Positions 1,800-58,615 of a stretch of 64,000 nucleotides of DNA are shown here, piece by piece. The position numbers were made by a program, and so were the translations under genes. The stretch covers positions 1 through 64,000 of the forward strand of contig CANQKF010000001.1 of assembly GCA_947624445.1 (NCBI GenBank), written 5' to 3'. The DNA comes from an uncultured Clostridia bacterium. GTDB lineage: Bacteria > Bacillota > Clostridia > Christensenellales > Borkfalkiaceae. The notes under the pieces were generated by a model that saw only the letters and a program-made list of their open reading frames with translations, was not told the origin of the DNA and did no database searches. The first letter of the stretch is position 1, and each line of letters begins with the position of its first letter.

Positions 1800-2219
1800 T
1801 TACGCTTTCGCCCCGACGAGCTTGGCGATATAACGCAGCGTCTCGATGTCCGCGTTATAGAAAGTGTGGTTCCACAGCCAGTGGTCTTTATGTTCCGTCC
1901 GTTTGTATGCCTGACAGGTCGGGTCGTCCCAGACCTTGTCCCACCGCTTCTGATATGCCTTGTACTCCGCCTCGGTGCATGATGTGGGGCTGAGGGCAAG
2001 ACGTGCGATGATTGCCTGCGTGAGCTTTCCCCTCTCCATCCCGTTGCCGTCGTCGTTGCGGGCGAAGTATTGGTGCGCATTTTCGCTATACATCAGGCAG
2101 ATGGGTTTGTGGTCGTAGTAGATCATTCCGTTGATTTCCTCGCACTCTGTCATAGCGGGAAGATTGACATCGCCGCAAATTGCCTTTTGTTTGAATCTCC
2201 TGTGCGTAATATATTTCAT
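1800..2219 (-). CDS. Conserved DGR-neighbour protein, unknown function
   Basis: About 139 residues starting MKYITHRRFKQKAICG; this start has GGAG at a better distance than the ATG two codons upstream. The N-terminal half has a basic patch (THRRFKQK) and an ICG motif; the middle reads SENAHQYFARNDDG. I recognise the family as a frequent downstream partner of DGR reverse transcriptases in gut phages. The start overlaps the RT stop by a few bases, implying translational coupling. Whether it assists mutagenic retrohoming is unknown. Confidence 0.65.
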   Translation of the reverse strand: MKYITHRRFKQKAICGDVNLPAMTECEEINGMIYYDHKPICLMYSENAHQYFARNDDGNGMERGKLTQAIIARLALSPTSCTEAEYKAYQKRWDKVWDDPTCQAYKRTEHKDHWLWNHTFYNADIETLRYIAKLVGAKA

Positions 2220-3379
2220 CTGCATAAACTCCTTTCTCTGAAATTTTCGATTTTCTCCGGTGAGAATTTGAACAATGAATAGAAGAGCCGCCGAAGTTTC
2301 AGCACCCTATTGTGGTCATTATAGTTATCGAGGTAGGCAAGCATCCCGTTTGTAGAAGTCCACAAGTCCTCGTAGCCCAGCTCGCCATCCATGACCTTCT
2401 TGTAGAATGACCGTATCTTATGGCGGTCGCGTTTCATGGCGCCGCGGTTCCCATGGACGAGTACCTTCCCCGTCTCTGTAATGGCGAATTTTGCCTTGCA
2501 ATATTTGAAGTACTGCGTCAGCGGCCTTATCCTTGTTTTACTTCTGCTGATGTGTAGGCCGAGGCTCGTCGCCTTCTCGATGAAGATTTCGAGAATGTGC
2601 TTCGCGTTCCTATCTGGCGGCACCAGTATGTAGTAATCATCCATATAGTGTCCGAATCCTTTCAGCGACAGCTGGCACTTCATGTAATTGTCGAGCGGCG
2701 ATGGCAGAGCTATCATCTCTGCTTGGCTCGGTTCTACACCAAGGGGCATCCCAATGTCACCCGAGATAGACGAGATAACCGCGTCACCGAACGCCCGTAG
2801 CTGTTCATTCGCGATATACATCTCGTGTCTGCGGTACAATTCCGAATGTGGCGCAGATGGGAAGAACTGTTTGAAGTCAATCAAGATAACCTTCCCCTCC
2901 CTCCCGTATTTACGGTAATGACGATGCAAGTCTTCTTTGAGTCGGTTCAGAGAGAACTCAAATCCCTTGCCCTCGAGGCTTGCTCCATTGTTCCAAATCA
3001 TTCCCGGTCGGTAGAGCGGCAGCAGGACATTCTTTGTATATGCCTTTTGCACTTGCCGATCTTGGACGCGCGGGGCGTCGATTGGTCTCGTCTTCCCTCT
3101 CTCATTCAGCATGAAGTGAACATACTTGTCGAATTGGTATTTCCCTTCCGCGACTTGTTTGCTTCTGACCGCCGTCCCGGAGAAAAGATGAGCTTCGAAG
3201 CGCTGCACACTATGTTTCCAACGTACACCGTTGCAGCATTTCTTCCCCGCTTTGTATAGTTCGTTATACGACAGAGCGGTCTCTATGCCGCCTATCGCAT
3301 CACATCGTTCCTTGCGCTTTTGTTCGCGCTTAGCCCGCCTTCGAAGATAGCGGGCTTCATGTCTTTCTTCACTTGTCAT
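2216..3379 (-). CDS. DGR reverse transcriptase
   Basis: 387 residues. RT palm motifs are visible: VILIDFKQFFPSAP with the first catalytic Asp, IGMPLGVEPSQ in the position of the DGR-typical xxxSQ motif 4, and HYMDDYYILV with the second Asp pair. An N-terminal basic region and a C-terminal thumb-like region (KTRIRP, AMKRDRHKIRSFYKK) follow. In DGRs this enzyme, with Avd, copies the template-repeat RNA into cDNA with errors at adenines. It lies directly downstream of the template repeat, completing the order target-avd-TR-RT on the minus strand. The TR/VR comparison shows that the system has acted here. Confidence 0.95.
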   Translation of the reverse strand: MTSEERHEARYLRRRAKREQKRKERCDAIGGIETALSYNELYKAGKKCCNGVRWKHSVQRFEAHLFSGTAVRSKQVAEGKYQFDKYVHFMLNERGKTRPIDAPRVQDRQVQKAYTKNVLLPLYRPGMIWNNGASLEGKGFEFSLNRLKEDLHRHYRKYGREGKVILIDFKQFFPSAPHSELYRRHEMYIANEQLRAFGDAVISSISGDIGMPLGVEPSQAEMIALPSPLDNYMKCQLSLKGFGHYMDDYYILVPPDRNAKHILEIFIEKATSLGLHISRSKTRIRPLTQYFKYCKAKFAITETGKVLVHGNRGAMKRDRHKIRSFYKKVMDGELGYEDLWTSTNGMLAYLDNYNDHNRVLKLRRLFYSLFKFSPEKIENFRERSLCR

Positions 3380-3642
3380 ATTTTTCTTAAAATAATTCGT
3401 CTCCCGTACAGTTTGATATCGTGTGCAGCTAAACTGCGTAAGCTTTACACATAAAATGGGGGTTTAGCACCTTCCTCCCACTATGCAAGCAGCGTCCGTG
3501 CAAAGCTATCAGGACCCGGGTTCGTTTCATACAACGAACCGACTGTTTTGGAACGCGCACGAGACGCGTTCACCGGAAACATCTCTCCTTTCACAAGGGT
3601 CCATTTCGTTACCTACTTTTCGCGACCCATTTTTTATGAGAT
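3380..3642 (-). ncRNA. DGR RNA spacer between TR and RT
   Basis: This gene-free stretch continues the template-repeat transcript toward the RT start. In the Bordetella phage system, the segment between TR and RT is part of the RNA used for priming and template-specific cDNA synthesis. A perfect hairpin GGTTCGTT-TCATAC-AACGAACC lies near the middle. ORFs in this stretch are short and read mainly through the repeat; I see no gene. Role by analogy only. Confidence 0.6.
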
Positions 3643-3759
3643 CCGGAGCCACGCCATTAGAATTATTAGCGTTGTTATTGTTGGCGTTGCCGTTGTTGTT
3701 GACATTGCAGAAATTGTTGCTGTTGTTGTAATTAGCAGAACGCTCCCACCAATTCGCCG
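3643..3759 (-). repeat. DGR template repeat (TR)
   Basis: 117 nt, aligned without gaps to the variable repeat at 4372-4488. On the coding strand it holds 17 AAY codons, mostly clustered, so its conceptual translation is a run of Asn (e.g. NVNNNGNANNNN). It lies between avd and the RT. All 27 TR/VR mismatches are at TR adenines; no G, C or T differs. Confidence 0.97.
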
Positions 3760-3799
3760 ACGACAAGGTTGACAGAGATGCACCGTTTATCGTGACTGA

Positions 3800-4255
3800 T
3801 CAGCGCTTTTTATCGCCTTTCAGAACACTCGTGAGTAAAGTATTCTCCTTATCTATTTTCTCCCCGAGAGACTGTGCCATATACTCCAACTTCTTTATAG
3901 CTTCGGAGGATGAAACACTGTTCCCGCTTTGTGTTGTGAAACAGCCCTGCGGATTCAACATCATGATGTTGTAGCAATGGCTGAGTTTTACGTCCAGCGC
4001 CATGAGCGAGGCGCGACCCTCGAGCAAGTGTTGCTCTCGGAGCTGCCTCCTGACATCGCCGGATGGATAGATACTGTTCGCCTTCTCGGCATTGTCGACG
4101 ACCTCTGACGCCAGACGGATGACATCATCCGCAAGCAGTCTTGCATATCTCGACGAAAGCCGCGTGAGGAATTGAAGGGTTTCGAAGTAGATGTCGTTTG
4201 CCGTGTTGACAAACTCCGCCTTGCTTTCCCCTCTCTTGTTTTTCAATACTGACAT
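3800..4255 (-). CDS. avd: Avd-like DGR accessory protein
   Basis: 151 residues, predicted nearly all helical and basic, as expected for the Avd four-helix bundle (related to 23S rRNA intervening-sequence proteins). Basic stretches include RLSSRYARLL and RRQLREQHLLEGR. Avd binds the DGR RT and the TR RNA and is needed for cDNA synthesis. The gene sits between the variable target and the TR, the canonical position. Identification rests on context, size and helical composition; the sequence itself diverges between systems. Confidence 0.85.
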   Translation of the reverse strand: MSVLKNKRGESKAEFVNTANDIYFETLQFLTRLSSRYARLLADDVIRLASEVVDNAEKANSIYPSGDVRRQLREQHLLEGRASLMALDVKLSHCYNIMMLNPQGCFTTQSGNSVSSSEAIKKLEYMAQSLGEKIDKENTLLTSVLKGDKKR

Positions 4256-4317
4256 TTTTCACCTGCTTTTTCTAAATTTTTTGTTCGCTAACAAGCCGTT
4301 CTCAGTCTGCGGGAATA

Positions 4318-4337
4318 CCGCCCACTTTCGTGGGCGG
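4318..4337 (-). promoter_or_regulatory. DGR target-site hairpin (GAAA tetraloop)
   Basis: On the target coding strand CCGCCCAC-GAAA-GTGGGCGG forms a perfect 8-bp stem with a GAAA loop, about 35 nt past the end of the variable repeat and just after the target stop codon. The same geometry (8-bp stem, 4-nt GAAA loop, short distance 3' of VR) marks the homing target in the Bordetella phage DGR. Confidence 0.9.
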
Positions 4338-4357
4338 ATTTTCCCAGATCAGAAAGA

Positions 4358-7300
4358 TTAGACTTTGAAAGCCGGAGCCACGCCAAAAGAATAAGCAGCG
4401 GCGGCACTGCCGGCGTAGCCGTCGTTGGCGACACGGCAGAAAGAGCCGCTGGAGTTGAAAGAAGCAGAACGCTCCCACCAATTCGCCGCGTCACCGATGG
4501 TGCCATTAAAGCGCTTCTTGATCTTCGTGTTGCCCGCGGCGTAATAAGCGTACTGCGCCTGACGGTTCCTCTCGTAGTTATTGGCATAGCTACGCGACCC
4601 GAAGATTTCGTATTCGGCAAGAAGGGGCAAGTAATCGGTCGTCTCCGTAACGTGGTCTTCGGTATTGCTGCTGTTCCCGTAGTTGTCCGTGAATTTCGTC
4701 ATCGGCTTCATGACCTGACGGAGGTCGAACGGAAGCGCCGCCATAAGCGTGTTCTCGACGGGGCTTGTAGCCGTCGTCTCTGCCGCGTTCTGAGCGCCTT
4801 TCTCGTGAACAGACCCGAGGATGTCGTAACGAAGGTCGCAGCCCTGCCATCCGCCCACATTGGTATTGCTACTGTGGTTCATGTTAAACCACTTAGAGCC
4901 ATTCGATGTGTAGTTGCTGTAGTGACTGTCTGTCAAGCAGAGGCTCTCGCCGTCAATCTGCGCGCTCTTAAAGGTACCGAAGTGGATACCCTTGCCTTCG
5001 TATCTCTCGTTGTGGTCGAACCCAAGGATATAGACGTACAACTTCTGTTCGAGAAGTTCGAGTGTGCCAATCGTGCCATTGAGTGTGACCTCTTTGCAAT
5101 CGCCGACCGAGAAGTAGTTCGCGCCCTGCCCTTTCTCGGAAATCTCGGAAATTACAGACCATGCCGTAGAGTTGAGTACATTCGGGTTCGTGAACGTCGC
5201 ACGGCAGGTCGTATCCTCTTGAATGTTCTTGTTGGACGGAATCCAACCGCTGAACCTGTCGCCTTCCTGAGAAGGTTCGGGCGTTTGCGAGCATTCCGCA
5301 TCCGCACCGTAGTCGACGACGACGCTTTCGATGAAGCTGTCTCCGTTGTAGAACTGAACGGTGTACTGCCTGATTGTCGCGATGAACGCTGCATAGACCG
5401 TGAGAGGCCCCGTAATCTTGTCGAGAACCGCGGGTGATGCCGGTGCGCCGTTGATTGTCGCCCAGCCGCTGAACGAGTATTTGTACTGAGGCGTCTGATC
5501 CTTTGTGGGGTCTTCGCCGCTGAAAGTTGCCCTGCCGCCGTTCTCGACCCAAGTCGTGTAGAGCAGGACGGTGTCGTTGTAGAAGAAGACGGCATAGGTC
5601 TCGTCGTACTGAGCCGTGACTACCTCGTCCTTCTGAACGTTAGTGGGCAGCTTATCCCACCCTCTGTAGGAATACTTCGTGTCCTCGGCGTCGTCCATCT
5701 TGGGTTCGCTGATGTAGCCCTGCTCGACGGGGTCTTCCGCGTTCGCGCCGCCAACCAGCTCTGCCGTATAGAGGATGGAGCCATCTTTGTTCTTGTATTC
5801 CACCTTATAGAGAAGGTTTTCGTATGTGAAGTTGATGTCGGGGTACTCACTCTGAAGCCGTTCGAACTCCGAGTAGCGCACGTTGACGATGTTCACGTTA
5901 CCCGTGACCTGTGCGTTTTGCGTGTTGCCGCCCGACTCGTCGATACCACGCATTGTATCAAGTGCGTCGAAGACTTCCATAAGCGCCTTCGTGTCCTGGA
6001 AGTTCCAGTTCACGCCGATGAGGCGCACGCGGCTTCCTTCATCGAGGTCTTTGACGATGTTTGCGCTGTCGACCGCAACGCCGCTATTCTCGATCCAGAA
6101 TGACGTCACGTGTTCGTAGCTCGGCATAGAGAAGTCCGTCAGCGCCGTCTGGTTCAGGAGCTTGATGCTCGTGACAGTTTCGGGCAAATGGAGCGTTTTC
6201 AAGATGCCGCCGTTCGGAAGCACGACACCCGAAATCTTTGTCCCCTCGAGATAGATTTCCTCGATATTGGGGCTTGCAGAAACGTTGACCTCGGACGCGA
6301 GGTTGATGCAGTTGCGCAGGTCGAGCGTCTTAAGAAGGACGTTGTTCCCAAGTGTAAGCGTAGTGAGGTTGGGGTTCGTGTACCCTTCCGCGGCGTCGCC
6401 GAGCTTCAAGTATTGCAGCTTGGTTGCCTTGGAGAAGTCTGCACGACCGACCTTAAGTCCGCTCAAATCCCCCGTACTCTTGATCTGCGACGCGGAATAG
6501 ATGTGGATTTCCGTATCGTTCAGATTGTCGACGGGACACTCGATTTCATAAGACTTCCCGCGAAGTGCGCGTACCTGACGAAGGTATGAACCGAACAGGA
6601 TAGATGCGTAGATGTCTGCATACGGCTCAATAGAGATGTTGCTCTTCGCGTAACCGCGGAGAACAATCATATCCGACTGCGCGTCGCCGGCGTTGTATTT
6701 GCTGTCGATATAGCGGAAGCGGTTATAGAGCCACCACTTTCTCTGTTCCGACTTGCTGCCCTGAAGCATCTGAAGATAATCGGCGCCCTCTTCGAGAAGC
6801 GGTTGCAGATACTTATAGTAGGCGTCCTCGTTCCAGATAGCTTCCGACCATACGGCCTGATGCTCTTCAAACGCCTTCTCCACGATTTCATAGGAGAGCT
6901 TGTTCTGAGAGCGAAGTTCCTGATACATAGAACGGATTTCGTTGCCGAACGCCTCACGGAGGTTAATCCAGAAGACGGACTGCTGACCGTTGTAAACGTC
7001 GGCTTCATCCACCTTGTCGATGTCCTCAAGCTCATAACCGAACACGAGCGAACCTTCGTTGTTGATACCGATTGCGGTATCCATGTCGTAAGGCAGCCAG
7101 CATACTTTTCCGCTCCCGAATTTGGACGGGAAGGCGTTCTTTGCACGGCTATCCACCATCAGGAACAGCTCTGTGAAGAGGTAGTAATAGATGGCGCTCT
7201 GAAGCTCAGCGTGTTCCGAGAACTCGTTCTTGAACTTCGCGAGACGGTATTCCTTGGTGTCGCTTTCGTACTTCACCCCGCCCCATGTTTTTGCCTCGGG

Positions 7301-10300
7301 TAAAGGCGCGTTCGTCGCCGCGGTCTGATCTGTCGACGCAACCCATGCAACAAACGGTTGCAGATTGGAGATGTCGGGTTCTTGTTCGTCCTCGTATTCG
7401 GGGTAGCGAGCCTCGAAGTCCTCTTTCCAGAGCTTTTCTCCGTTCTCGTCTGTGGCGTCAAAGTCAGCAGATTTGAAGAGTGTGCGGTTCGAAGTGTTGT
7501 TGAGGATTTCCCACGATTCGTCTCCCTCCGTGAAGCCGTAGACTTCGGGGGTTCCCTTGTCGTTATTGAAGTTGTATTTCCCGAGGAAGGTCGTTGTCTG
7601 CCCGTCGTTGTGGAATATGACGATAGGCAAGCCGTCGATGCCCTGTCGAACGTTGGGGTTCTCTTCCTGCGGGGGTGTCTTGTAAGGGCAAGTCTCGTTA
7701 TAGAGACGCACAAGCTCGACGTTGTTCGCGCCCTCGGATGAAGCGACGTCCGCCTTGAAGGTGAATGTTTTCGTCGGGATGCTGTTTGCACGAAGCTGGT
7801 AGGTTTCCTGATCCACATCGTTGTGCTTGAAGCCCTTGAACTTAATTTTGTAGTTCTTCCTCGCATAACCCGCCGAAGATGTACCCTGCACGTCTGCCGA
7901 AGCGCCCTCAAACTCGAAAGATTTCGCACTGTCGTTCTTGTCGGTATAGGACCCGTCGACGTCGACTTTGTTCCCTTTGTACTGGGGGAGCGTCTCTGCT
8001 TGCAGAATGAGATACGGGATGTTCGTCGGAAGTTTGTCCGCGACGATGGAGCCGTAGTCATCATAGACGGCGTTACGGTTGTATCTCGCGAGCCGCTCTT
8101 CGACGTCCTGCGTGTCGGCAATCCAGTTGTCGAGGATCTGATAGCGCGTCAGGTCATTGCTGTAGACGCGGATATTATAGATATCGATTGTGCAGTCATT
8201 GCTGCCAACCGTGATGTTGACAGGTACGCCCTGTGAGAAGTCGTCGTTCTCCGAATAGCGCGCGGCGCCGCACATGATGCCGTTAAGGTAGATGTAGATG
8301 AGACGGTTCTCTGCCGCTTTCTCGACGACGAAGCTCAGACGGATATGCTCGTCTTCCTTGTACTGCGTCGAAATTTCAGACATCTCGGACTTGAGGAGAG
8401 CTTCCTGAGCCGTGATTTCGAACCCCCTGTTCCCAGAGAAACAGGACATTACGACCGCGTCATAGTCAAGCACGTCTCTCGTCGCGAACTCGATTTCGAT
8501 TGTCTTGCCTGTGATACGGAAATCGTTCTCGAACACCTTGAGCGGAATCGTGAGCCGTGCGTTACCCGTAACGCGATGGACAGGGATGCCCCTCGCATCA
8601 ATTTGCCAGCCGTCGTTGACCCAGTTGTATCCCGCGAACGTGCAAGCGATGTCGTTGAACTCCCACTTTGCGGGTTCAAGCTCGCTGTTGCTTCTGCCTG
8701 TACTCGTAAGGTAGAGGTCGAGGTCGCGCGTTTCCGCTTCGACATCGATTGAACTTCCCGCGACGTTCACCGTGAAGGTCTTCTTGGCCTCGCCACAAGC
8801 GATTTCAAGCTGTACCTCGCCCGACGTGTCGGCACGGTACGTCCAAATCTGCTCCGTTCTGCCGACGGTAAGCGTGGAGACCACGCGCCCATTGACAGAG
8901 AGCGTAACGGTAGATGAAACGCTGGCGGGGTTGTAGACGATATAAGGGATATTGACCGTCTCAAACTGTTCAAGCTCTTCACGGTTGAAGGAGCTTGCAA
9001 TGATGGGCGTGTTGTTGCCCGCCTCGGTGCAGATGAGGTCATAATATAGGTGGTTCGATTCGACGTCTTGCCCGTCGACCATGGCCGTGAAATACACCTC
9101 AAAGGTGTGAGACCCGTGTGTCTGCTTTTCAATGATGTATGTCTGCTGCCGCCCTGAAACGAGAACCGTTTCTGTCCCCTCCTCCTCACCGTCGATAATG
9201 AAGTGGACAATTTTGCTGACATTCCCGCGGGGAACATATGTATAGTTGATTGCGTCGCTGTATGCCCTGTTCGCATTGAAAGTCGACGACAATGAAAGCG
9301 CGACCACCGTGACCGTATAGCTGATGGTACGTTTGTTGTTGTAGACGTCCGTGACGCTGATGCGGATTGAGTTAGTACCTGTTGTGAGATACTCGCCTAC
9401 CGAAATCGAGAAAGGTCCCTGCTCGATATTCGTCGTCCGCTTCACAATCCCGCCGACTGTCACGGTGAGCGTGCCTGCACCCGTGGGAAGGTCGCCTTCG
9501 AGAGAACTCCATATACCCGTAATCAGGCACTCTTGGTTCTCGGCAATCGACTTGGTCAGCCAGCCCGTCGTGCTTTGCAGCGTGAGGATAGCGTTGTTTG
9601 AACTGCCGCCACCGCCGCCACCACCGCTGGTCGCGACCGTCACGCCGTCGCCGATTTTCTCGCCCTCGGAAAGCAGATAAAGCTTGCCGTCCTCCGTATC
9701 GAAGAACAGGTTGTCGGCCTTTGTGAGGAGTTTCGCCTCTATCGACGCAAAATTCTCCTGCATGGCATCCTGCGCAGCTTCTGCTCTTTCCGCGGCGGAT
9801 TCAGCAGCCGTCATCGCAGTTTCTGCCCTTGCAGCATCTTCCGCGGCGGTCATGTTGTACTCTTCAAGCATGGCAAGCCCGCGCTCTACCGCTTCTTTGT
9901 CTGTGTCGTACTTCGTGACAAGCTCCTCTGCCCTGTCAAGTGCCTCTCCCGTCTTCTTCTCTCTTTCCGCCTCTGCCGCCTGACGCTCTTCCTCTGCCTT
10001 GACGCGGGCATTCTCGCTCTCTTCGAGTTCTTTGAGCATCTCTTGCAGCGAGTTGTATTCGGGCGTCGCTTCAACGGCTTCGTTACTCGCCTGCGATTTG
10101 TACACGACGACGTAGAAGGTCTTTGAGGTGAGCCACATGGTTTTCCCTTCATCGAACACCGAGACCTCGCACGGCACTCTCCCTTCTGCCGCCAAGAGCG
10201 AACTCCCGATTCCGACGAGAACCGTATTCTTCCGCGTTCCATCCGTGGCGCTGTCCGCTTTGATGACATCGCAGTTGATGAACATGGGCGTCTGGTCTGG

Positions 10301-10495
10301 CAACGTCGCGTTCAGGATTGCTCCCGAGTAGGGAGTGAGGTCAATCACCCCCCTGTCATCGAAGAGCGCGACCTCAACATAGCGCGTTTGGACGTCGTTC
10401 TGCTGGGCGGGGATAACGACGACGGGCGAAGCGTTATAGTCCACCGTAGGAAGCAGAATCCGTTTAACAGCTTTCCCGACTAAGTTTATCTCCAT
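4358..10495 (-). CDS. DGR-diversified giant tail fibre / receptor-binding protein
   Basis: 2045 residues. Rough layout: BppU-like N-terminal baseplate-attachment domain (1-130); charged coiled coil (~145-250); Gly7-Ser hinge (~295); Ig-like beta domains (~300-590); a LamG/concanavalin-like domain (~610-790); a CotH-like region with VQGTSSAGYARKNYKIKF and KADVASSEGANN (~850-1260); leucine-rich-like repeats (~1300-1480); three InlB B-type repeats with SGW/RGW signatures (~1560-1780); and a C-type-lectin/FGE-like DUF6273-type C-terminus ending in NWWERSASFNSSG...GVAPAFKV. The last ~40 codons are the DGR variable repeat, so the lectin fold displays the diversified surface that presumably binds the host. 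Start supported by GGAGG. It follows the tail-tip genes. Confidence 0.9.
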   Translation of the reverse strand: MEINLVGKAVKRILLPTVDYNASPVVVIPAQQNDVQTRYVEVALFDDRGVIDLTPYSGAILNATLPDQTPMFINCDVIKADSATDGTRKNTVLVGIGSSLLAAEGRVPCEVSVFDEGKTMWLTSKTFYVVVYKSQASNEAVEATPEYNSLQEMLKELEESENARVKAEEERQAAEAEREKKTGEALDRAEELVTKYDTDKEAVERGLAMLEEYNMTAAEDAARAETAMTAAESAAERAEAAQDAMQENFASIEAKLLTKADNLFFDTEDGKLYLLSEGEKIGDGVTVATSGGGGGGGSSNNAILTLQSTTGWLTKSIAENQECLITGIWSSLEGDLPTGAGTLTVTVGGIVKRTTNIEQGPFSISVGEYLTTGTNSIRISVTDVYNNKRTISYTVTVVALSLSSTFNANRAYSDAINYTYVPRGNVSKIVHFIIDGEEEGTETVLVSGRQQTYIIEKQTHGSHTFEVYFTAMVDGQDVESNHLYYDLICTEAGNNTPIIASSFNREELEQFETVNIPYIVYNPASVSSTVTLSVNGRVVSTLTVGRTEQIWTYRADTSGEVQLEIACGEAKKTFTVNVAGSSIDVEAETRDLDLYLTSTGRSNSELEPAKWEFNDIACTFAGYNWVNDGWQIDARGIPVHRVTGNARLTIPLKVFENDFRITGKTIEIEFATRDVLDYDAVVMSCFSGNRGFEITAQEALLKSEMSEISTQYKEDEHIRLSFVVEKAAENRLIYIYLNGIMCGAARYSENDDFSQGVPVNITVGSNDCTIDIYNIRVYSNDLTRYQILDNWIADTQDVEERLARYNRNAVYDDYGSIVADKLPTNIPYLILQAETLPQYKGNKVDVDGSYTDKNDSAKSFEFEGASADVQGTSSAGYARKNYKIKFKGFKHNDVDQETYQLRANSIPTKTFTFKADVASSEGANNVELVRLYNETCPYKTPPQEENPNVRQGIDGLPIVIFHNDGQTTTFLGKYNFNNDKGTPEVYGFTEGDESWEILNNTSNRTLFKSADFDATDENGEKLWKEDFEARYPEYEDEQEPDISNLQPFVAWVASTDQTAATNAPLPEAKTWGGVKYESDTKEYRLAKFKNEFSEHAELQSAIYYYLFTELFLMVDSRAKNAFPSKFGSGKVCWLPYDMDTAIGINNEGSLVFGYELEDIDKVDEADVYNGQQSVFWINLREAFGNEIRSMYQELRSQNKLSYEIVEKAFEEHQAVWSEAIWNEDAYYKYLQPLLEEGADYLQMLQGSKSEQRKWWLYNRFRYIDSKYNAGDAQSDMIVLRGYAKSNISIEPYADIYASILFGSYLRQVRALRGKSYEIECPVDNLNDTEIHIYSASQIKSTGDLSGLKVGRADFSKATKLQYLKLGDAAEGYTNPNLTTLTLGNNVLLKTLDLRNCINLASEVNVSASPNIEEIYLEGTKISGVVLPNGGILKTLHLPETVTSIKLLNQTALTDFSMPSYEHVTSFWIENSGVAVDSANIVKDLDEGSRVRLIGVNWNFQDTKALMEVFDALDTMRGIDESGGNTQNAQVTGNVNIVNVRYSEFERLQSEYPDINFTYENLLYKVEYKNKDGSILYTAELVGGANAEDPVEQGYISEPKMDDAEDTKYSYRGWDKLPTNVQKDEVVTAQYDETYAVFFYNDTVLLYTTWVENGGRATFSGEDPTKDQTPQYKYSFSGWATINGAPASPAVLDKITGPLTVYAAFIATIRQYTVQFYNGDSFIESVVVDYGADAECSQTPEPSQEGDRFSGWIPSNKNIQEDTTCRATFTNPNVLNSTAWSVISEISEKGQGANYFSVGDCKEVTLNGTIGTLELLEQKLYVYILGFDHNERYEGKGIHFGTFKSAQIDGESLCLTDSHYSNYTSNGSKWFNMNHSSNTNVGGWQGCDLRYDILGSVHEKGAQNAAETTATSPVENTLMAALPFDLRQVMKPMTKFTDNYGNSSNTEDHVTETTDYLPLLAEYEIFGSRSYANNYERNRQAQYAYYAAGNTKIKKRFNGTIGDAANWWERSASFNSSGSFCRVANDGYAGSAAAAYSFGVAPAFKV
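4372..4488 (-). repeat. DGR variable repeat (VR)
   Basis: 117-nt copy of the template repeat at the 3' end of the fibre gene. Compared with TR, 15 of 17 AAY codons plus one TAC are changed, giving S, F, G, R, A, D and Y in place of N or Y, while the framework residues (NWWERSA, FC, GVAP) are untouched. Confidence 0.97.
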
Positions 10496-10878: not shown

Positions 10879-13800
10879 TTATTCGTTTTTCTCCTTATTT
10901 GATTCCAAATCGCGAACGCGCGACTTCAATTTTTGTATTTCTTTGACGCACAAAGCAATAAATTCGTCATACCTCAGACAACACGTCTTTTCTCCATCGA
11001 CGTGCGTTATATCAAGGTACGCAGCAAATTCATCGGTGTCCAGTCCGCAAATGGCAACCGCCTCCTTGACATCTTGGGCAATAAACCCCGTGTGGTACCT
11101 ACCAGATGTTCCTCTGTTATACTTAAACCGAACCGGCCTCAAAGCATCGAATAACTGTTCATATCTGTCCCCCAATGCCTCAATGCTGTTTTTGTATTGC
11201 TTATCAGAGGTGATTGCGGCGCCATCGCTCATTTGCCAAGTACCCCTCAGCTCACCACTATCGGCATAAAGTGTCATCCAGCTCTTCGCTTGACTATTCG
11301 CAGAAGCGGACATGGTGATATTTGAAACCGAAAAGAAGTCGTTTTTTGCTCCAACGGTTAAACTCGCTATGTGGTCGCCTTCTGTGGTTGCATATATGAA
11401 TGAGCCTAATGGAGTATATTCTCCATCCCCCCGCGTATTAATGTTTAGGTAGTTTGTGCCTCCGCCATATAATTCAAGGGCATCTGTGTTGTGCATATTA
11501 AGGCTACCATACGACAGCGTAGCTCCAAAGCTGTCTTTTTTATTTCCGTCGTAAGTCGTTTCAAGTAAGGTTGTAAGCGTCCCTGGCATCAACCTAACGT
11601 AGTAATCATCTACCTTATCTGTGGATGTGCTTTTTTCTCCAAGAAGGATTTCCCCCTTTTTAGTTTGAAGCACGCCACTTTTGCTTATCGTGAAGTTCCC
11701 TCCACCAATGTTAATGCCATCAACGCCAATGTATACACCATCGGTGCCGTCCGAACGCGACATCGAATCGCACCCATTGTACAGAGAAGTCGTTCCTATG
11801 GTAAATCCACCTATGGAACCGCCCTCTGCCTCAATCTCACCCTCAATGTGCGCTCCTTTTGCTGTGATTTTTCCATCGGCGTCGAGCGTAAAGTTCGTGC
11901 TTGCGATGCTAAGCTGCCCAGTGGAAAACGCGATTGAGTCAGCATGAGCATTGAGTGTTGCGCGCTTGTTATTGTCAACGGAGAAAATAAACCCCTTGGG
12001 GTCTGGGGCATCGCTCACATGGTCATAGCCTATTGTAACGCCATCCTGAAGCGTAAGTTTTGTGGCCACAATCTCGCCGACAATCGTCAAGTTGCCGTAT
12101 CTGTCTGCCTGAAAAACGGCATCGCCATAATCATCCCTGATCAATATCCCATCTTCGTTTAGAAGTATTGTGCCAGACGCATTGCGGATTTGCAATTCTC
12201 TCCCGAGCATCAAATCCCCAATAATAGCTTCGGCAATTAGCCCATAGGCCTGCACATTCTCCCCTTTGTCGTTAACGTAAGTTACCCTTCCAAGCGCAAG
12301 GGATGCCGTCTCCCAGTTATCGCTCGTAAAGAGAATTGTGTTGTTCATGATGCGGATTTGTTCATCCTCAAATGTTGTCTGTGAGTTATCCGTCCATTTC
12401 CTGCCGAGAATACCCGTAGCATCGACGATGAACTCTTGATTGTACATATTCCCCTTTGCAATGCGAAGGGTTGCGTCGAGCGGATCCATGACAAGATTTG
12501 AAATCTTTTCTTTGTTTCTTGTGTAATCGGTCAGGTTTGACCAGTTGGCAGCAACTGTTCTGGAGACCGAAGATGTCTCTTTGAGAAGGTCTGCAAAGGT
12601 CATCGCGGTGTCCTCAGGCCTCGAAGCATTAGAGAACGTCATTGAAAACGTATCCGACTTATCGAGGTCGTACTCGAGTGTCATGAGCGCGAGATGGTAC
12701 AAAACCCCGTCCGCTTTCTCTATTGTAATGCTCCGTCCAAGCTCGAGTTCATCCGTAAACTGCTTGAACTCTATGAGACGGATGAAGTTGATGGCATCGA
12801 CCGTCAGTTCAAATTTCGGCTGGCATGACTTCGCGAGGTCCGCCTTCGCCGCGGTCATAAGCTCTCCCGCAAGCGAGATGCGCTCTGCCATTGTTGTTGT
12901 ATCGTATGTCGCAAAGTTGCTGCTCGAATAGCTACCCTCGATCCAGTAGTTAGAAAGTTCGTTATAGATCGGCAGCCCGAGTTCTTGTCCGCGACGGGAA
13001 ATGAACTTCTCCACGTTGCAAAGGTTCGTGATGTACTCGAGCTTCTCTTGAAGCGCACCAATGTCGCTCGTCAGCCTCTCCGCAACGCTGTTCAGGTCCT
13101 TGCTGATATGGTTCTGCCAAAGCGTAATCCACGAGCCGGACTCGATATACGTTGTGTAGCGGTCAAACCCAGAGACGTAGAAGCAGTAGATGGAGACAAT
13201 CCCATCCGCGCTGATGACTGCTCTGTAGCGCACTCCATCGTAAACAAAATAACCGTTTGATTGAGAGAGGGTTATTGTGTTTCCGTTTGGCATAGTAACC
13301 TTGCAGCCACCCGTCGTCGCCTCAACCGTGAATTTAACGCCGCGAACTTCGACTGTTCCGCTACCAGATATCGAATCGTTTTCGTCCTTGACGACACCGA
13401 CCTCAGACGAAACAACGAGCTTGCAATAGCTCCTCGCGTCCCCGTCCATGAAATAGAAGCGAACAGCGCTGTTCGCCACGTCATCTTGGTCGAAGTAGTT
13501 CGTGATGAATGACCGCGGCGTTCCGTTCATCCCAGAGCCGCTGAATACGAACTCATAATGAAACTTGTCGTCAGTCCCAACCTTTTTCGGAGTCGGGGCG
13601 GTTGTGTAACCATTGATGGTCGACAGCTCTGTGAATGCGGTATTCCAAAATGTCGTCCCGCTCTTCATACTCTTCGCGCCAGCGTCAACCGTCTCCGCCG
13701 TAACATATCCAGAGCCATTCAAAGCTTCTTCCCGTTTCGTTCGCCACTGGTCGCAAGCGGCCTGCAAATCCGTTAGTTTCAGATTTGCGTATTGAATATC

Positions 13801-14889
13801 GGCATCAGACTGCGCCTGCTGCGCGTAAAGTTCTTGTAACTTTTCAACAAGCGTTCCGTATGCCTCCGTGTGTCCTGTTCTCGAAGGGTCGTCCTTCTGC
13901 CACTTTTCAAACTCAATCTCCCATGCGTCAAGAGCCTCGATAAGCTCCTTGGACATCCACGGGTACTCCACCCCGTCATCGTCGACGAGGCGCTTATAGT
14001 ACGAAAAGTCAACGATATAATTCGTACCCATTGGGTTGACTGTTGTGATGTCGAGGTCGTTCCCTTCGCAATCCAGAACCGTCACAATGTCCTCCGCATC
14101 CTCGTTTATCGTGATTGAGTTGAGGACATTTTGAAGCGAAAGGTAGATGTTGGTCGGCTTCGTGATCGCCTCAAGGGTCTTCACCTTGATTGCGTGATGC
14201 AGGATATCGAACTCAAAGACGACCTCAAACGCTTTCTCGACGTCGTTGACGATGAACTCATAGCCGTTCGTGTCGGTCTTTTCTTCGAAGCTCCTGCAAA
14301 TATTGTCCGCATCTTCTGCTGACGTGTAGATATCGGAGCTACTCCGTGAACGGAATCGCAGGGAAGGGTCTATGTATGTCAATGTCCATTCTTTGTAGTC
14401 CTCGGTGGGTTCCATCTCCGACATGGTAAGTGCGACCTTGATGCCGAGCTGCTTGCTCAGCTGACCGACAACGGACGGTATCGCAGAAAGGTTGCTGCTG
14501 TCATATATATCGTCGTAGCGGTCGTTCGGATTATAAAACATATAGACCCTGTTTTCCGTCACAAATCCCCTATCGAAAAGGACGGTCTGGTGAGATTTTG
14601 CCGTAACATTTTTCTGACACTTATCCCCTTCGACGACCTCCTCCGCTGTCTTGATTTGGAACCATCCGATGTTGTCGACATAGACAAGCCGCTTCGACTT
14701 GATGAGGTTGTAGCTTTCTTCCGTGCCTTCGATTTTGGGAACGGTAAAAGACAGTTCTGACAGGTCGTTAAAACGCAACGTGAGCGTTCTGTTCACGCCG
14801 TGAAGCGCACACAGAAATCTCTGGTCTGGATTACACAAGTACATATCCGGACTTTCGATGCGCTTGTAGTAATCAAAGCTGTTCTTCAT
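10879..14889 (-). CDS. Tail-tip protein (Tal-like) with C-terminal S74 chaperone
   Basis: 1336 residues. The N-terminal ~400 residues look like the gp27/Tal-type hub that closes the siphophage tail tube and carries the fibre. The middle has coiled-coil and repeated beta-rich units (TLNAHADSIAF, AHIEGEIEAEGGSIGGF). The C-terminal ~110 residues, starting SDKQYKNSIEALGDRYEQ and containing RFKYNRGTSGRYHTGFIAQ, are a peptidase S74/endosialidase-type intramolecular chaperone. This domain trimerises the protein and normally cleaves itself off with a Ser-Lys dyad. Start supported by GGAGG. It follows Dit. Confidence 0.85.
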   Translation of the reverse strand: MKNSFDYYKRIESPDMYLCNPDQRFLCALHGVNRTLTLRFNDLSELSFTVPKIEGTEESYNLIKSKRLVYVDNIGWFQIKTAEEVVEGDKCQKNVTAKSHQTVLFDRGFVTENRVYMFYNPNDRYDDIYDSSNLSAIPSVVGQLSKQLGIKVALTMSEMEPTEDYKEWTLTYIDPSLRFRSRSSSDIYTSAEDADNICRSFEEKTDTNGYEFIVNDVEKAFEVVFEFDILHHAIKVKTLEAITKPTNIYLSLQNVLNSITINEDAEDIVTVLDCEGNDLDITTVNPMGTNYIVDFSYYKRLVDDDGVEYPWMSKELIEALDAWEIEFEKWQKDDPSRTGHTEAYGTLVEKLQELYAQQAQSDADIQYANLKLTDLQAACDQWRTKREEALNGSGYVTAETVDAGAKSMKSGTTFWNTAFTELSTINGYTTAPTPKKVGTDDKFHYEFVFSGSGMNGTPRSFITNYFDQDDVANSAVRFYFMDGDARSYCKLVVSSEVGVVKDENDSISGSGTVEVRGVKFTVEATTGGCKVTMPNGNTITLSQSNGYFVYDGVRYRAVISADGIVSIYCFYVSGFDRYTTYIESGSWITLWQNHISKDLNSVAERLTSDIGALQEKLEYITNLCNVEKFISRRGQELGLPIYNELSNYWIEGSYSSSNFATYDTTTMAERISLAGELMTAAKADLAKSCQPKFELTVDAINFIRLIEFKQFTDELELGRSITIEKADGVLYHLALMTLEYDLDKSDTFSMTFSNASRPEDTAMTFADLLKETSSVSRTVAANWSNLTDYTRNKEKISNLVMDPLDATLRIAKGNMYNQEFIVDATGILGRKWTDNSQTTFEDEQIRIMNNTILFTSDNWETASLALGRVTYVNDKGENVQAYGLIAEAIIGDLMLGRELQIRNASGTILLNEDGILIRDDYGDAVFQADRYGNLTIVGEIVATKLTLQDGVTIGYDHVSDAPDPKGFIFSVDNNKRATLNAHADSIAFSTGQLSIASTNFTLDADGKITAKGAHIEGEIEAEGGSIGGFTIGTTSLYNGCDSMSRSDGTDGVYIGVDGINIGGGNFTISKSGVLQTKKGEILLGEKSTSTDKVDDYYVRLMPGTLTTLLETTYDGNKKDSFGATLSYGSLNMHNTDALELYGGGTNYLNINTRGDGEYTPLGSFIYATTEGDHIASLTVGAKNDFFSVSNITMSASANSQAKSWMTLYADSGELRGTWQMSDGAAITSDKQYKNSIEALGDRYEQLFDALRPVRFKYNRGTSGRYHTGFIAQDVKEAVAICGLDTDEFAAYLDITHVDGEKTCCLRYDEFIALCVKEIQKLKSRVRDLESNKEKNE

Positions 14890-42905: not shown

Positions 42906-42935
42906 ATTATACGTCATATTTAGACAAGGTGTCAA
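42906..42935 (-). promoter_or_regulatory. Strong sigma70-type promoter with operator
   Basis: On the minus strand TTGACA-18 nt-TATAAT, both boxes perfect. The spacer contains the 13-bp operator GTCTAAATATGAC (42913-42925). About 36 bp including -35, spacer and -10 are identical to the plus-strand promoter at 49141-49170. Drives the leader and helicase operon. Confidence 0.9.
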
Positions 42936-43017
42936 ACATTTAAGCCAGTAAAAGGAAGATTTGTGAGCAAAATCTTTTCTTTTTTTCTATTTTTTCTTTT
43001 CTTTTTTCTTTCGTTAT

Positions 43018-45225: not shown

Positions 45226-45408
45226 GGCTAACCCCTAAAGGGGTTGACAGCTCGCCCTGTGTAGTGAACGACGGCGACCCCGCCGCTCGGCTCGCCCCCT
45301 CACGGGCGCGGGTCACGGCTCGGCTCGGCGGCTCGGCGGCTAACCCCTAAAGGGGTTGACAGCTCGCCCTGTGTAGTGAACGACGGCGACCCCGCCGCTC
45401 GGCTCGCC
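45226..45408. repeat. 71-bp direct duplication
   Basis: 45226-45296 and 45338-45408 are identical (beginning GGCTAACCCCTAAAGGGGTT), separated by 41 bp of CGGCT-rich sequence. Each copy has a small hairpin AACCCC-TAA-AGGGGTT and a TTGACA box without a good -10. The repeats lie directly upstream of the next gene and may be binding sites or the trace of a recent duplication. Confidence 0.9.
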
Positions 45409-49071: not shown

Positions 49072-49140
49072 GTGGAGCTTAGCCCCAGCAAGGGCTAAGG
49101 TGAAATAAAAAAAATAATTCCAGAACATACGTTCAAATGT

Positions 49141-49170
49141 TTGACACCTTGTCTAAATATGACGTATAAT
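49141..49170 (+). promoter_or_regulatory. Strong promoter with operator, twin of the 42.9 kb promoter
   Basis: TTGACA-18-TATAAT with operator GTCTAAATATGAC at 49151-49163. A second, reversed operator GTCACATTTAGAC lies at 49231-49243, inside a longer palindrome ATGTC...GACAT. Between them CCGCCGC-CTTTTTTT-GCGGCGG forms a hairpin with a T-rich loop. Drives the following ~1-kb structured RNA region. Confidence 0.9.
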
Positions 49171-53716: not shown

Positions 53717-55099
53717 ATGGAAATTTCGAACAACAGGCTTCTGTCAGCAGAAGCGGATGTGTTCTTCGATGGGCGCAAGCACAGAGAATCGTCGTTCCTC
53801 AATGACAACGTCGTTGAAACGGTTCTTCGATATGCCGCCCTTCGGAGTCGCACGGGAGACCTTGGCACGGTTGCTCCGATCAAGGCGGAGAGCCGCTCCG
53901 GCATGTTGTTCATTAACAACGACTGGAATAAGCTCGCGACGGATTGCGATTGCGAGCTGCTCATCGTCGCCCATACATCTATGCGTCCCCCGAAGATTAC
54001 GCTTGAGGGCTGGGTGTCTCTCGATAAGCCTCCGTACCCCGTTGCGCTCCTGTTCGCAAAAGCCGGTGAAACGCACATCTTTATCAACGAGCAACTGAGG
54101 AAGGCGGTTATCATCGTAAAAGACGTGGTACTCCCCTCGTTTAGAAAATTACTCGCGTCGTGCTTGCTCAGGATTCTGCCGTGGCGTTTCCACGACGACG
54201 AACTCGACAAACGCCTCATGACAGCCATCAACAAAGGGGACGAAGCGGCTTTCCGCTCTGTCATTGATAGCGTATGTAGCGACGTCGACCTCAGGGGCGC
54301 CGCCCTTCAAAGAATACTTGCGGGGTGGGAAGATGAACTGCGAAAAGCAAAAATCGTAAACACTCAAAAAGCCCTCGAGAAAATCCAAGGAGAACTTGCT
54401 TATCTGCAGGAAGACATTGCGCAAAAGCTCGATGAATACGACAAGGTCAACGTCGAGCTTCAAGATGCAATGTTCGCCCAGAAGCGCGGCAACGGAGACG
54501 TTCTCAGATTCTTCCAGCGCCATCGGCAGCTGTCCATTGTCGATACTGGCGATGTGGTGGAGTTGGACGGCAGATACCTCGATTACGCAATCACGGAGAC
54601 GATTGAATATTACAACGAGGAGCAGTTCTTGCGTATGTTCAACAATGCAGATTCCCCGTTCAACAGTCGCGCCATTTCCGATGAGACAAGGGGCATCTGT
54701 TATGCGATCTTCAAGGAACATCTCGGCGTTGTAAGAGCAGAGGCTGTTTTCCGCCTCACAAACCTCTCCTCTCTCAGGCCCAGAATGAACGGGCGTTCCG
54801 GGAACACAGCATCAACGTGCATCATCCATCCTCACATTGGACACTACGGTTGCCTTGGCGGAAACGAAACGCCGATCAACAGGTACATGAAGGATGGACA
54901 GTGGGATTTGGCAATCGAGCAAACGATTGCCGCGGCAAAGAATCTCAATATGGGAGATATCGCGGTGTTGAGTTCGTTCCTCGTTGACTTGAAGAATGCG
55001 TCAACGAGCATCAAGTGCATCATCGCCGACAACGGAGTCGAAATGACCCCCCACGAGTTCTATGAGTACGTCGAGGAAGCCCACAAGAAAGCATCATAA
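53717..55099 (+). CDS. E2-like conjugating enzyme with long N-terminal region
   Basis: 460 residues. N-terminal ~140 residues are beta-rich; ~200-260 form a coiled coil (KALEKIQGELAYLQEDIAQK). The C-terminal domain contains CIIHPHIGHYGCLGGNETPI (residues ~370-390), which matches the E2 pattern HPN-x-x-G-x-CLx with the candidate catalytic Cys in GCLG. E2 enzymes carry the Ubl as a thioester. Operon position between Ubl and JAB/E1 supports this. The N-terminal part is not recognised. Confidence 0.75.
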   Translation: MEISNNRLLSAEADVFFDGRKHRESSFLNDNVVETVLRYAALRSRTGDLGTVAPIKAESRSGMLFINNDWNKLATDCDCELLIVAHTSMRPPKITLEGWVSLDKPPYPVALLFAKAGETHIFINEQLRKAVIIVKDVVLPSFRKLLASCLLRILPWRFHDDELDKRLMTAINKGDEAAFRSVIDSVCSDVDLRGAALQRILAGWEDELRKAKIVNTQKALEKIQGELAYLQEDIAQKLDEYDKVNVELQDAMFAQKRGNGDVLRFFQRHRQLSIVDTGDVVELDGRYLDYAITETIEYYNEEQFLRMFNNADSPFNSRAISDETRGICYAIFKEHLGVVRAEAVFRLTNLSSLRPRMNGRSGNTASTCIIHPHIGHYGCLGGNETPINRYMKDGQWDLAIEQTIAAAKNLNMGDIAVLSSFLVDLKNASTSIKCIIADNGVEMTPHEFYEYVEEAHKKAS

Positions 55100-55115
55100 G
55101 CGAGGAAAGAAACAC

Positions 55116-55898
55116 ATGGCAAGGAAAATCTACATCACCCCAGAGGATGTTGGAGCGCTCATCGGTACCGCGACCGCGGTGGACAACAGAAAAGCGACGC
55201 TACTTCTCTCGGTAGCAGCTTGGGCGAAAATCCAAGCGCTGGTTTCAAAGTACACGACGGAAGTCCAATGGCACGGCACAGTCGAACGTGTGGATGCGAC
55301 GACGTTCCTCGTAAAGGACATCATCCTCTTCCCACACACCGTTACCGGTGCAACCGTAACCTCTGACCAAGACGATTATGAGGAATGGATCAACTTTCTC
55401 CCCGACAACATCTTCAACCAGATGCGGTTTCACGGACATTCTCACGTCAACATGGCGGTATCGCCGTCGGAAGTCGACATGAAGTACAGGCGTGATATAA
55501 TCCGCAATTTTGGGTCCAAACGCAGTAAGAACAGGGATGACTTCTATATCTTCCTCATCATCAACAAGAGCGGGTGCGTGAGCGCTCAAATCTACGACCT
55601 CAAAAACAACTCTTTGTACACAAAGGACGACCTCCACACAGAGATAGTGCTTGACGTTGTATTCGGCGACGGTTCACGCATTTCGGACTTTTTGGAGGAA
55701 GCGGCATCGGTCGTCAAAACGCCAGCACCCATCCCCTCCACCTCCCCCACCGCGGCACCTTTGTCCAAGGGAAAGGGTGGCAGCAAACCGCAGGAGAAGA
55801 AAGACAGACACCCCGTCAACGGGTATGGTATCAAAGACTATGACGGCTATGATTATAGCTACGGTTACAAGCACTACAGCGGGAGATACGAGGAATAA
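55116..55898 (+). CDS. JAB/JAMM (MPN) metalloprotease
   Basis: 260 residues from MARKIYITPEDVG (start chosen by CGAGGAAAG). The JAMM zinc motif is complete: a Glu in the preceding strand region (TEVQWHG), then HGHSHVNMAVSPSEVD with H-x-H-x7-S-x2-D. Such enzymes remove ubiquitin-like tags or mature the Ubl. A Pro/Ser/Gly-rich linker and a Tyr-rich tail (DYDGYDYSYGYKHYSG) follow. Downstream of the E2-like gene, upstream of the E1-like gene. Confidence 0.9.
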   Translation: MARKIYITPEDVGALIGTATAVDNRKATLLLSVAAWAKIQALVSKYTTEVQWHGTVERVDATTFLVKDIILFPHTVTGATVTSDQDDYEEWINFLPDNIFNQMRFHGHSHVNMAVSPSEVDMKYRRDIIRNFGSKRSKNRDDFYIFLIINKSGCVSAQIYDLKNNSLYTKDDLHTEIVLDVVFGDGSRISDFLEEAASVVKTPAPIPSTSPTAAPLSKGKGGSKPQEKKDRHPVNGYGIKDYDGYDYSYGYKHYSGRYEE

Positions 55899-55916
55899 CT
55901 TCCCAAGGAGAAGAAA

Positions 55917-56588
55917 ATGGATCTCACAAAATCGCAGGACTACTTCAATCCCATCGGCGTTGACCGCTGCCACATCATCGGCTGTGGTTCGGTCGGCTCG
56001 ACGGTAGCGGAGCTTCTCATCCGCCTCGGCCTCACAAAGATTTCTTTGTATGACTTTGATACGGTTTCGGCTCACAATCTCGCCAATCAGATGTTCGTGA
56101 ACTCCGACATAGGTCGTCCGAAGGTCGAAGCGGTCAGGAGTTTACTAACTGTAATCAACCCCGAATCGAAAATCGACATCGAGGTTCATCCCGATGGGTG
56201 GACGGAGAAAACGAGGCTGAGCGGATACGTCTTCCTCTGCGTCGACAACATCGAGACAAGGCGTAAAATCGCCGAAAAGAACAAGCAGAATATGTCCATC
56301 AAAGGGATGTTTGATTTCAGAACGACGCTCACTGGTGGACAGCATTATGCAGCCGACTGGAAAGACCCGGACGCGGTAAACAACCTCATCAACAGCATGG
56401 ACTTCACTCATGAGGAAGCGAGGGAATCGACGCCAATGACTGCGTGTAATGTCGAAATGGGCGTTGCCCCTACCGTAAGGGTCATCAGTTCATATGGCGT
56501 CGCCAACTTCATGAACTTCGTGAGAACGAAGAAGCTCAGGAGCATCATTGTCGCGGACGCATTCTCATTTGAGACATACGTCTGCTAA
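55917..56588 (+). CDS. E1/ThiF-like adenylyltransferase
   Basis: 223 residues. Rossmann nucleotide-binding IIGCGSVGSTVAELLIRLG, then ISLYDFDTVSAHNLANQMF and IGRPKVEAVRSLL are the standard E1/ThiF/MoeB landmarks, and LCVDNIETRRKI follows. It would adenylate the Ubl C-terminus and pass it to the E2. The protein is short for a full E1; a catalytic Cys candidate is C in MTACNVEMG. AAGGAG start, 18 nt after the JAB gene. Confidence 0.92.
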   Translation: MDLTKSQDYFNPIGVDRCHIIGCGSVGSTVAELLIRLGLTKISLYDFDTVSAHNLANQMFVNSDIGRPKVEAVRSLLTVINPESKIDIEVHPDGWTEKTRLSGYVFLCVDNIETRRKIAEKNKQNMSIKGMFDFRTTLTGGQHYAADWKDPDAVNNLINSMDFTHEEARESTPMTACNVEMGVAPTVRVISSYGVANFMNFVRTKKLRSIIVADAFSFETYVC

Positions 56589-56928
56589 ATACACAACACT
56601 AATAAAGCAATTCTCATTTCGCATGAGGCTATGGATCAAATTCATAGTACCAAAATGATAGGAAGAAAAGGGAGGAAGACCGCACGCCGCCCACAGTGCG
56701 AAGAGAAGAGAGGCTCTTGGCAACCGCGGACGACCTGTAAAGCCCCAAGTAAGAGTCGCAAGAAGCCAATTCCAACAAGAAAATCAGCAAATGGGACTCC
56801 GAAAGTGAGAAAAATCGATTGCGATCAAACCTTAAATGGACGCACCGCGAACCACAGAACCCGTGTGGAGGTAACGATGCGCATTCTCAGATGATTCCTA
56901 TGCAACACATAGTTTATTAGGAGAAATT
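56589..56928 (+). ncRNA. Element E: RNA-like region upstream of the second RT
   Basis: 340 nt between the E1-like and RT genes. The hairpin CTATG-n9-CATAG is followed by AGTACCAAAATG (56646-56657) and a purine-rich run. The same layout occurs at 58294-58321 and 49283-49307. The ATG opens a 79-codon very basic frame (MIGRKGRKTARRP) without a clear ribosome site. This is the position of the msr-msd RNA in retrons, but the usual a1/a2 pairing is not evident to me. Confidence 0.5.
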
Positions 56929-58080: not shown

Positions 58081-58615
58081 TACAAGCTCAAATAGCTATT
58101 CCATCGCTTACATAATCCATTGGCGCTTGGGCACCAGACAAAGTCGGGTGTGACGCGAAAGTCGTCAGTTTTCAACTCAAGCTGACGAACGGATCTCATC
58201 CTAAAGGACGAGATCCCATTGGGTATTTGGGCTTGGACAAACAAAAAATAGGTGGTTTACAATCGTCATTTCTATTGCCCTACACAATAGAGCTTTTGGC
58301 GACGCCAAAAGTACCAAAATGCTGGGGAAGAAAGAACGAATCCAGAAGGCAGCGCCTGCTGGTCATCCAAGAAATAAGGGTGGATGTAGCAGGAGCGCAC
58401 CGTCCGAAGACGAGACAATCCCCACGAAGTTAAACCGATGCGAGCAATTCGAGCATCAGATACAGTTAAGCCTTGAAGCATTGGCGGATAAGAGGCGACT
58501 TGATACGACGGAACTCGTTCAAGAACATAAACCTTAGCGCGCATGTCTCGACCTCCAGTACATCATTCATACCATTCGAAAGGATTGCAAACCAAACCAT
58601 CCACAAGGAGAACCA
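58081..58615 (+). ncRNA. Element F: structured region downstream of the second RT
   Basis: 535 nt without a gene supported by a ribosome site. Stems: TCGTCAG...CTGACGA (58162-58188), GGATCTC-ATCC...GGAC-GAGATCC (58191-58216) and TTTTGGC-GAC-GCCAAAA (58294-58310). The last is followed directly by GTACCAAAATG and GGGGAAGAAA, as in elements at 49283 and 56629. The ATG starts a 72-codon basic frame (MLGKKERIQKAAP). Confidence 0.55.

Follow-up and report, generated by a model that had tools for sequence, protein, structure and literature searches.

The window analysed here is the whole stretch of 64,000 nucleotides (nt) from an uncultured Clostridia bacterium (contig CANQKF010000001.1, positions 1 to 64,000), and near its left end lies a diversity-generating retroelement (DGR) on the minus strand. 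A tail-fibre-like protein of 2045 amino acids (aa) at 4358-10495, target 1 of the element, is followed by an Avd-like accessory protein of 151 aa at 3800-4255, the template repeat (TR) at 3643-3759, a spacer RNA at 3379-3630 and the DGR reverse transcriptase (RT) of 387 aa at 2216-3379. An earlier reading made from the sequence alone had described a complete phage DGR in canonical order that diversifies the C-terminal tip of the fibre, and the order of target, Avd-like gene, TR and RT is confirmed. The fibre was assigned by its open reading frame (ORF), by Pfam and PHROG matches and by its neighbour, a Prophage_tail/Peptidase_S74 protein at 10879-14889. About the last 270 residues of the fibre (4361-5167, minus strand) form a tip domain, probably C-type-lectin-like, which is recognised by Pfam DUF6273 (3.1e-6), by a conserved tip alignment and by homology to a second target described below; a profile of this tip found nothing relevant among PDB sequences. 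The tip presumably binds a host receptor. The 3' end of the fibre gene is the variable repeat VR1 (4372-4488, minus strand).

TR and VR1 were found by repeat search, and on the minus strand they align over 117 nt without gaps. They differ at 27 positions, all 27 of them TR adenines, and these coordinates and counts are those that the sequence-only reading had given. The changes comprise 11 A>G, 8 A>T and 8 A>C. There are 39 adenines among the 117 nt of TR, and the hypergeometric probability that all 27 mismatches fall on them is 1.6e-17. The repeat search lengthens the match to 123 nt (3637-3759 and 4366-4488), where the 6 additional nt at the 3' edge bring one A>C and one C>T. The same reading correctly counted 15 altered AAY codons, but their total is 18 and not 17. 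Downstream of VR1 there is a DNA hairpin at 4318-4337 on the minus strand, CCGCCCAC-GAAA-GTGGGCGG, with a GC stem of 8 bp and a GAAA loop (folding energy -11.2 kcal/mol, z -5.9). A hairpin downstream of the VR is required for homing in phage BPP-1, whose hairpins have stems of 7-10 bp and GRNA loops (PMC3240598). In the relatives a hairpin follows TR in just 1 of 59.

The RT matches RVT_1 of Pfam (1.5e-11) and PHROG 1423 'Reverse transcriptase' (1.7e-58), and it carries YMDD. Its sole PDB match is 8ub7-8ube 'Reverse transcriptase' (1e-11), which we take to be the BPP-1 enzyme. The earlier reading would have been given up if the DGR signature of motif 4 were missing from the RT in a phylogeny. 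The motif is LGVEPSQ, in agreement with the pattern [LIV]GxxxSQ of DGRs, and the form LG[VR]EPSQ is kept in 64 of 64 relatives with a readable motif. On the RT tree the protein clusters with BPP-1 brt and with the RTs of Roseburia phage Shimadzu and Faecalibacterium phage Lelie (support 98/97), apart from group II-type RTs.

Does the template serve the fibre only? A search of the same genome with its own TR found a third copy, VR2, at C1:67185-67301 on the plus strand. Note that the prefix C1 marks coordinates which continue the window numbering on the same contig, and VR2 is 3.2 kb past the window end (64000). It forms the 3' end of an ORF of 240 aa on the plus strand (target 2, C1:66593-67315). 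Compared with TR, VR2 has 27 differences, 26 of them at adenines; compared with VR1 it has 26, and 25 of these are at TR adenines. Twenty adenines are changed in both VR1 and VR2, with the same new base in 8 of the 20. The TR/VR 3' end is shared, and a hairpin stands downstream of VR2 as it does of VR1, in this case GCACCCC-GAAA-GGGGTGC at C1:67337-67354, 35 nt downstream. A chance match is ruled out for VR2 by its score of 117, compared with a maximum of 21.8 in the null of reversed sequence. The earlier account of a single target is thus right that TR and VR1 form a real DGR and incomplete in its scope, as the same TR very probably feeds a second target 63 kb away.

Target 2 carries DUF6273 (9.3e-11), a domain placed among the C-type lectins (C-lec) by structure comparison (PMC10743442), and is homologous to the last ~270 residues of the fibre (44% over 88 aa). 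It is, in effect, a free-standing fibre tip without the fibre. The AlphaFold model of the 240-aa protein was poor with 8 sequences (predicted local distance difference test, pLDDT, 56), while with 49 relatives it reached pLDDT 86, and >90 over most of residues 50-240. Viral structures matched by this model are DUF6273 proteins. A clearly hydrophobic 19-residue stretch was found in 0 of 8 small targets, and therefore none of them has an evident membrane segment or signal peptide.

Both targets are found in one prophage. Its left attachment site, attL, is the displaced 3' half of a host tRNA-Leu(CAG) at 70-123 on the minus strand, an 87% direct repeat of C1:93359-93412, and its partner attR/tRNA-Leu is at C1:93359-93441. 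An integrase is encoded at C1:92039-93256, and the GC content rises from 0.50 to 0.62 at 93 kb. Therefore nearly the whole window is prophage, about 93 kb long and bounded by att sites, and VR2 is inside the same prophage. The possibility that VR2 belongs to a host gene is ruled out, as the prophage extends to 93.4 kb. The minus strand holds the structural genes (portal, terminase, tape measure, Dit and fibre), and the gene of target 2 is in a plus-strand arm with ERF, a PD-(D/E)XK nuclease, a primase-helicase, PolIII alpha and NrdD. Thus the second VR is in a non-fibre gene, 63 kb from the RT cassette.

Is such a DGR active? The sequence-only reading had proposed to look for continued A-only variation in related sequences, and this variation is found in sister phages. 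In pairs of near-identical relatives with the same TR, the fibre VRs differ at 16-23 positions, while 0-3 changes are seen in up to 600 flanking bases. All differences are at TR adenines in L033/L044 (16/16), L055/L078 (16/16), L056/L058 (18/18), L071/L079 (20/20), L042/L043 (23/23) and L029/L035 (23/23), and nearly all in L068/L071 (19/20) and L068/L079 (15/16). Several further pairs are identical throughout, VR and flanks included. The DGRs of the clade are active, because near-identical relatives differ at VR adenines with almost unchanged flanks. One relative, L042, has a second nearby VR at 6954-7054, 2 kb upstream of the first, with 23/23 differences at A.

The second target is not peculiar to this prophage. 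We scanned 18 related IMG/VR records, whole or nearly whole, each with its own TR, using an A-tolerant ungapped scorer and the null given above. Seven remote targets were found in 6 of the 18 records, with scores of 61-133; each is a protein of roughly 220-280 aa whose gene lies some 39-64 kb away from TR. The distances and the fractions of differences at adenines are 39 kb and 16/16 in G004, 58 and 64 kb with 15/15 and 21/21 in G020, which has two, 40 kb and 23/24 in G034, 58 kb and 22/22 in G012, 41 kb and 14/14 in G026, and 40 kb and 8/9 in G028. A GC hairpin follows every remote VR, VR2 included. The stem is perfect over at least 7 bp in 6 of 8, and by eye the remaining two have a 6-bp stem (G004) and a 5-nt loop (the second of G020). 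Several of the small targets stand among replication genes. A homolog of target 2 in a rabbit-gut Clostridia metagenome-assembled genome (L211) has a primase on one side and DNA methylases/D5 helicase on the other. The small target of G026 is flanked by a PD-(D/E)XK nuclease and by a primase-helicase, after which comes PolIII alpha, and the gene layout of G028 indicates the same; in G004 the neighbours are a helix-turn-helix repressor and a serine recombinase. Near the small target of G034 there is a protein with an RNA-dependent RNA polymerase (RdRP)-type Pfam match (4e-15; L141 10007-12583, minus strand).

The substitution rates differ between the body of the small targets and their VR. For target 2 against the L211 homolog (73% identical), the nonsynonymous rate (dN) of the body is 0.16 and the synonymous rate (dS) 1.57, a ratio of 0.1, while the VR has dN 0.33 and dS 0.19. 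Similarly, the small targets of G026 and G028 have dN 0.10 and dS 0.99 in the body, and dN 0.36 and dS 0.28 in the VR. With dN/dS close to 0.1 in both comparisons, the body of target 2 is under purifying selection. The VR, with its low dS and raised dN, is as expected if it is overwritten time after time from a conserved TR while adenines are mutated. At neither of the two RT loci in the L211 genome was a TR for its homolog found; the TR of the prophage studied here explains 17 of the 21 differences. Changes can also be read from near-identical sequences. Between G020 and L237 the VR has 2 changes, each of them at a TR adenine, against 0 in 4259 bp upstream and 1 in 3000 bp downstream. Within the last 700 nt of the gene, L260/L218 (20 changes) and L227/L252 (8 changes), compared without their TRs, have all their changes confined to the final 104 nt, with 0 changes in 457-500 nt downstream. 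At the level of sequence comparison, these natural pairs confirm that the small remote targets are diversified.

The spacer between TR and RT is itself a known RNA. It matches Rfam RT-2 (RF03077) over model positions 1-222 of 222, with 103.5 bits against a gathering threshold of 40 (E 6.5e-23), and the match at 3379-3630 spans from 13 nt past TR up to the RT start on the minus strand. Among 20 relatives searched, RT-2 was found at the TR-RT junction in every one with a complete spacer, beginning about 7-20 nt after TR by TR coordinates; the exceptions are a partial copy where the contig is cut off and a locus which starts inside the RT. Therefore RT-2 is the DGR TR-RT spacer here. Rfam catalogues RT-2 as a stand-alone RNA family, whereas here it adjoins TR. 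No text linking RT-2 to DGRs was found in the literature searched, the original motif description being outside that search. In BPP-1, the spacer RNA is needed for cDNA priming, and by analogy RT-2 may correspond to it. Its placement exactly as a DGR spacer suggests a role for this Rfam RNA. One relative (L028, 798-1065) has two RT-2 RNAs, perhaps of two cassettes. The Avd-like protein (phrog_30516, minus strand) is conserved in the clade and is at the expected position of the cassette.

Taken together, we consider it very likely that the prophage carries a complete DGR whose single TR serves two targets in trans. The RT, with the Avd-like protein, would reverse-transcribe the TR-spacer RNA, and adenines would be misread during this step. 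The cDNA would then overwrite any VR whose 3' end matches and which is followed by a tetraloop hairpin. Both VR1, at the fibre tip beside the cassette, and VR2, in the 240-aa protein of the early arm, would qualify. In BPP-1 experiments, the initiation of mutagenic homing (IMH) sequence together with the hairpin suffices for retargeting the DGR to another gene (PMC3240598), and the biochemistry proposed here is modelled on that system.

There is a further question of concern, what is target 2 for? From its gene position it would be expressed early. Because small targets recur among replication and early genes, this setting argues for an early, intracellular target 2. The most likely role, in our view and with a confidence that is about even, is that of a soluble protein which binds, inside the cell, a variable molecule of the host or of a rival phage. 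In the fuller scenario, the DGR would evolve the fibre tip and, besides, a soluble C-type-lectin-like binder made early in the cytosol. This binder would resemble a 'phage antibody' whose ligand, a molecule of host defence or of a rival phage, keeps changing, and early targets of this type would be a recurrent class in gut Clostridia phages. This scenario is proposed tentatively. Several points weigh against the overall explanation of one DGR with two targets. One of the VR2/TR mismatches is not at an adenine. The activity of the DGR copy in this prophage is presumed from that of its relatives. The Avd-like profile finds the annotated Avd of Shimadzu only weakly (E 0.0018), finds nothing among the solved structures of PDB, and the protein has no match in NCBIfam. 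Foldseek matches of the target 2 model (the Legionella Lcl C-terminal domain, with probability 0.95, CD23 and CLEC9A) are all weak, and no remote VR of this kind was seen in 12 of the 18 records, many of which are fragments.

Might target 2 rather be part of the virion? It could be a minor component encoded among early genes, such as an adhesin decorating head or tail, so that both targets serve adsorption or adhesion. The homology of its domain to the fibre tip, a weak match to a PHROG family of Hoc-like head decoration proteins (3.5e-4) and the virion-like nature of other DUF6273 DGR targets (PMC10743442, PMC11792537) speak for it. However, target 2 is on the opposite strand, distant from the structural genes, and has no visible shaft or attachment domain; the G026 gene is packed in a replication operon and the L211 gene is between primase and methylase. 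We consider this explanation rather unlikely, though worth keeping in view. It is also unlikely, in our opinion, that target 2 is a free tip domain which lysis sets loose to occupy or probe receptors at the surface, as a soluble decoy or superinfection blocker. It does share domain and TR with the fibre tip, and a protein without signal peptide or membrane segment is compatible with such release. However, a lysis product would not need an early gene context, and VR1 and VR2 differ at 26 positions, therefore the fibre tip and target 2 need not share a ligand. Another explanation takes VR2 as a passive by-product, a captured copy of the tip domain near early genes that is rewritten through its kept cis site without function. 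DUF6273 tip-like genes are indeed numerous in gut phages, but the purifying selection seen in the body (dN/dS near 0.1 for each of two pairs), the presence of ribosome-binding sites and the recurrence with hairpins in several phages make it very improbable. As for an ordinary repeat, explained by chance, by duplication or by a nearby retron or group II RT, the single point in its favour is a match of the RT to an NCBIfam group II RT/maturase model at 52 bits, far under the cut-off of 300 bits. It is ruled out by the adenine restriction (P 1.6e-17), the DGR motif 4 and tree, and the A-only natural variation in relatives, and we give it practically no weight. If the intracellular binder is the right reading, DGRs would be a route for phages to evolve binders inside the cell, for example against defence systems. 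Receptor switching does not easily explain a recurrent second target of this kind, which is a free copy of the tip domain among early genes, with a constrained body and a VR that the same TR renews. As several related phages have the two-target layout, the idea of an intracellular binder can be tested.

Some other features of the prophage may be mentioned. A second RT at 56929-58080 on the plus strand is retron-type, with motif QGTPISP/YADD, best PDB matches to retron RTs (1e-20) and a PADLOC match to RT_II-A (9e-48). A second DGR of the window at this RT was rejected, as the RT is retron-type and no A-only repeat is nearby. Its flanks (56589-56928 and 58081-58615) are long and non-coding, with inverted repeats at 58191-58216 and 58293-58311, and gave no Rfam match. 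Directly upstream, at 55062-56588 on the plus strand, a JAB/JAMM-looking protein (HGHSH...SPSEVD, by eye) is followed by an E1/ThiF-like protein (PADLOC E1-E2, 1e-15). A 36-bp perfect direct repeat (496-531 and 566-601) belongs to a larger, imperfect repeat array close to the left end of the prophage. Around the switch between the minus and plus arms, there are a 71-bp perfect direct repeat (45226-45296 and 45338-45408) and a 36-bp perfect inverted repeat (42906-42941 and 49135-49170).

How does this DGR compare with known systems? The DGR of BPP-1 (mtd-avd-TR-brt) has the same gene order, RT clade and A-only TR/VR differences and also a GC hairpin with a 4-nt GRNA loop after VR, and, as here, its neighbours are lysis genes and a tRNA att site. 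It differs in that the RT here is distant, on a long branch, the Avd-like protein is not recognisably similar in sequence to the solved Avd, the fibre is a protein of 2045 aa and not Mtd, and a second distal VR is present. Two-target DGRs with a small second target of no assigned function have been reported in the phages Shimadzu, Lelie and CP11 (PMC11792537), and two-target cassettes in nd4/nd12 (PMC10743442). Shimadzu (fibre orf22 and orf43) has the same order of fibre, Avd and RT, and its second VR, with 15/15 differences at A, is in the small orf43 between a methyltransferase and an Erf recombinase; by tblastn (2e-9), orf43 and target 2 are homologous. The RT of Shimadzu is 35% identical to the RT here, and the phage is much smaller (45 kb). 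The Faecalibacterium phages Lelie and CP11 have, like this prophage, two DUF6273 targets, one large and one small (PMC11792537), and the small target of Lelie, orf58, is 14 kb from the cassette. Their RTs belong to another DGR subgroup, and the large target of Lelie is placed after the RT. Four gut prophage species have a distal second VR near DNA methyltransferase or counter-defence genes (PMC12629997, Nature 2025). By description they resemble the present case in having the second VR far from the RT cassette, although the DGRs of that study are mostly from Bacteroidota phages. Distal second VRs have thus already been reported in gut phages, and therefore the cassette belongs to a known type; in itself it is an ordinary phage DGR with the layout of BPP-1. 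The present analysis contributes the sequence relation between target 2 and the fibre tip, the recurrence and early-gene context of such targets across the clade, the evidence for diversification from natural replicates, and the identity of RT-2 with the spacer.

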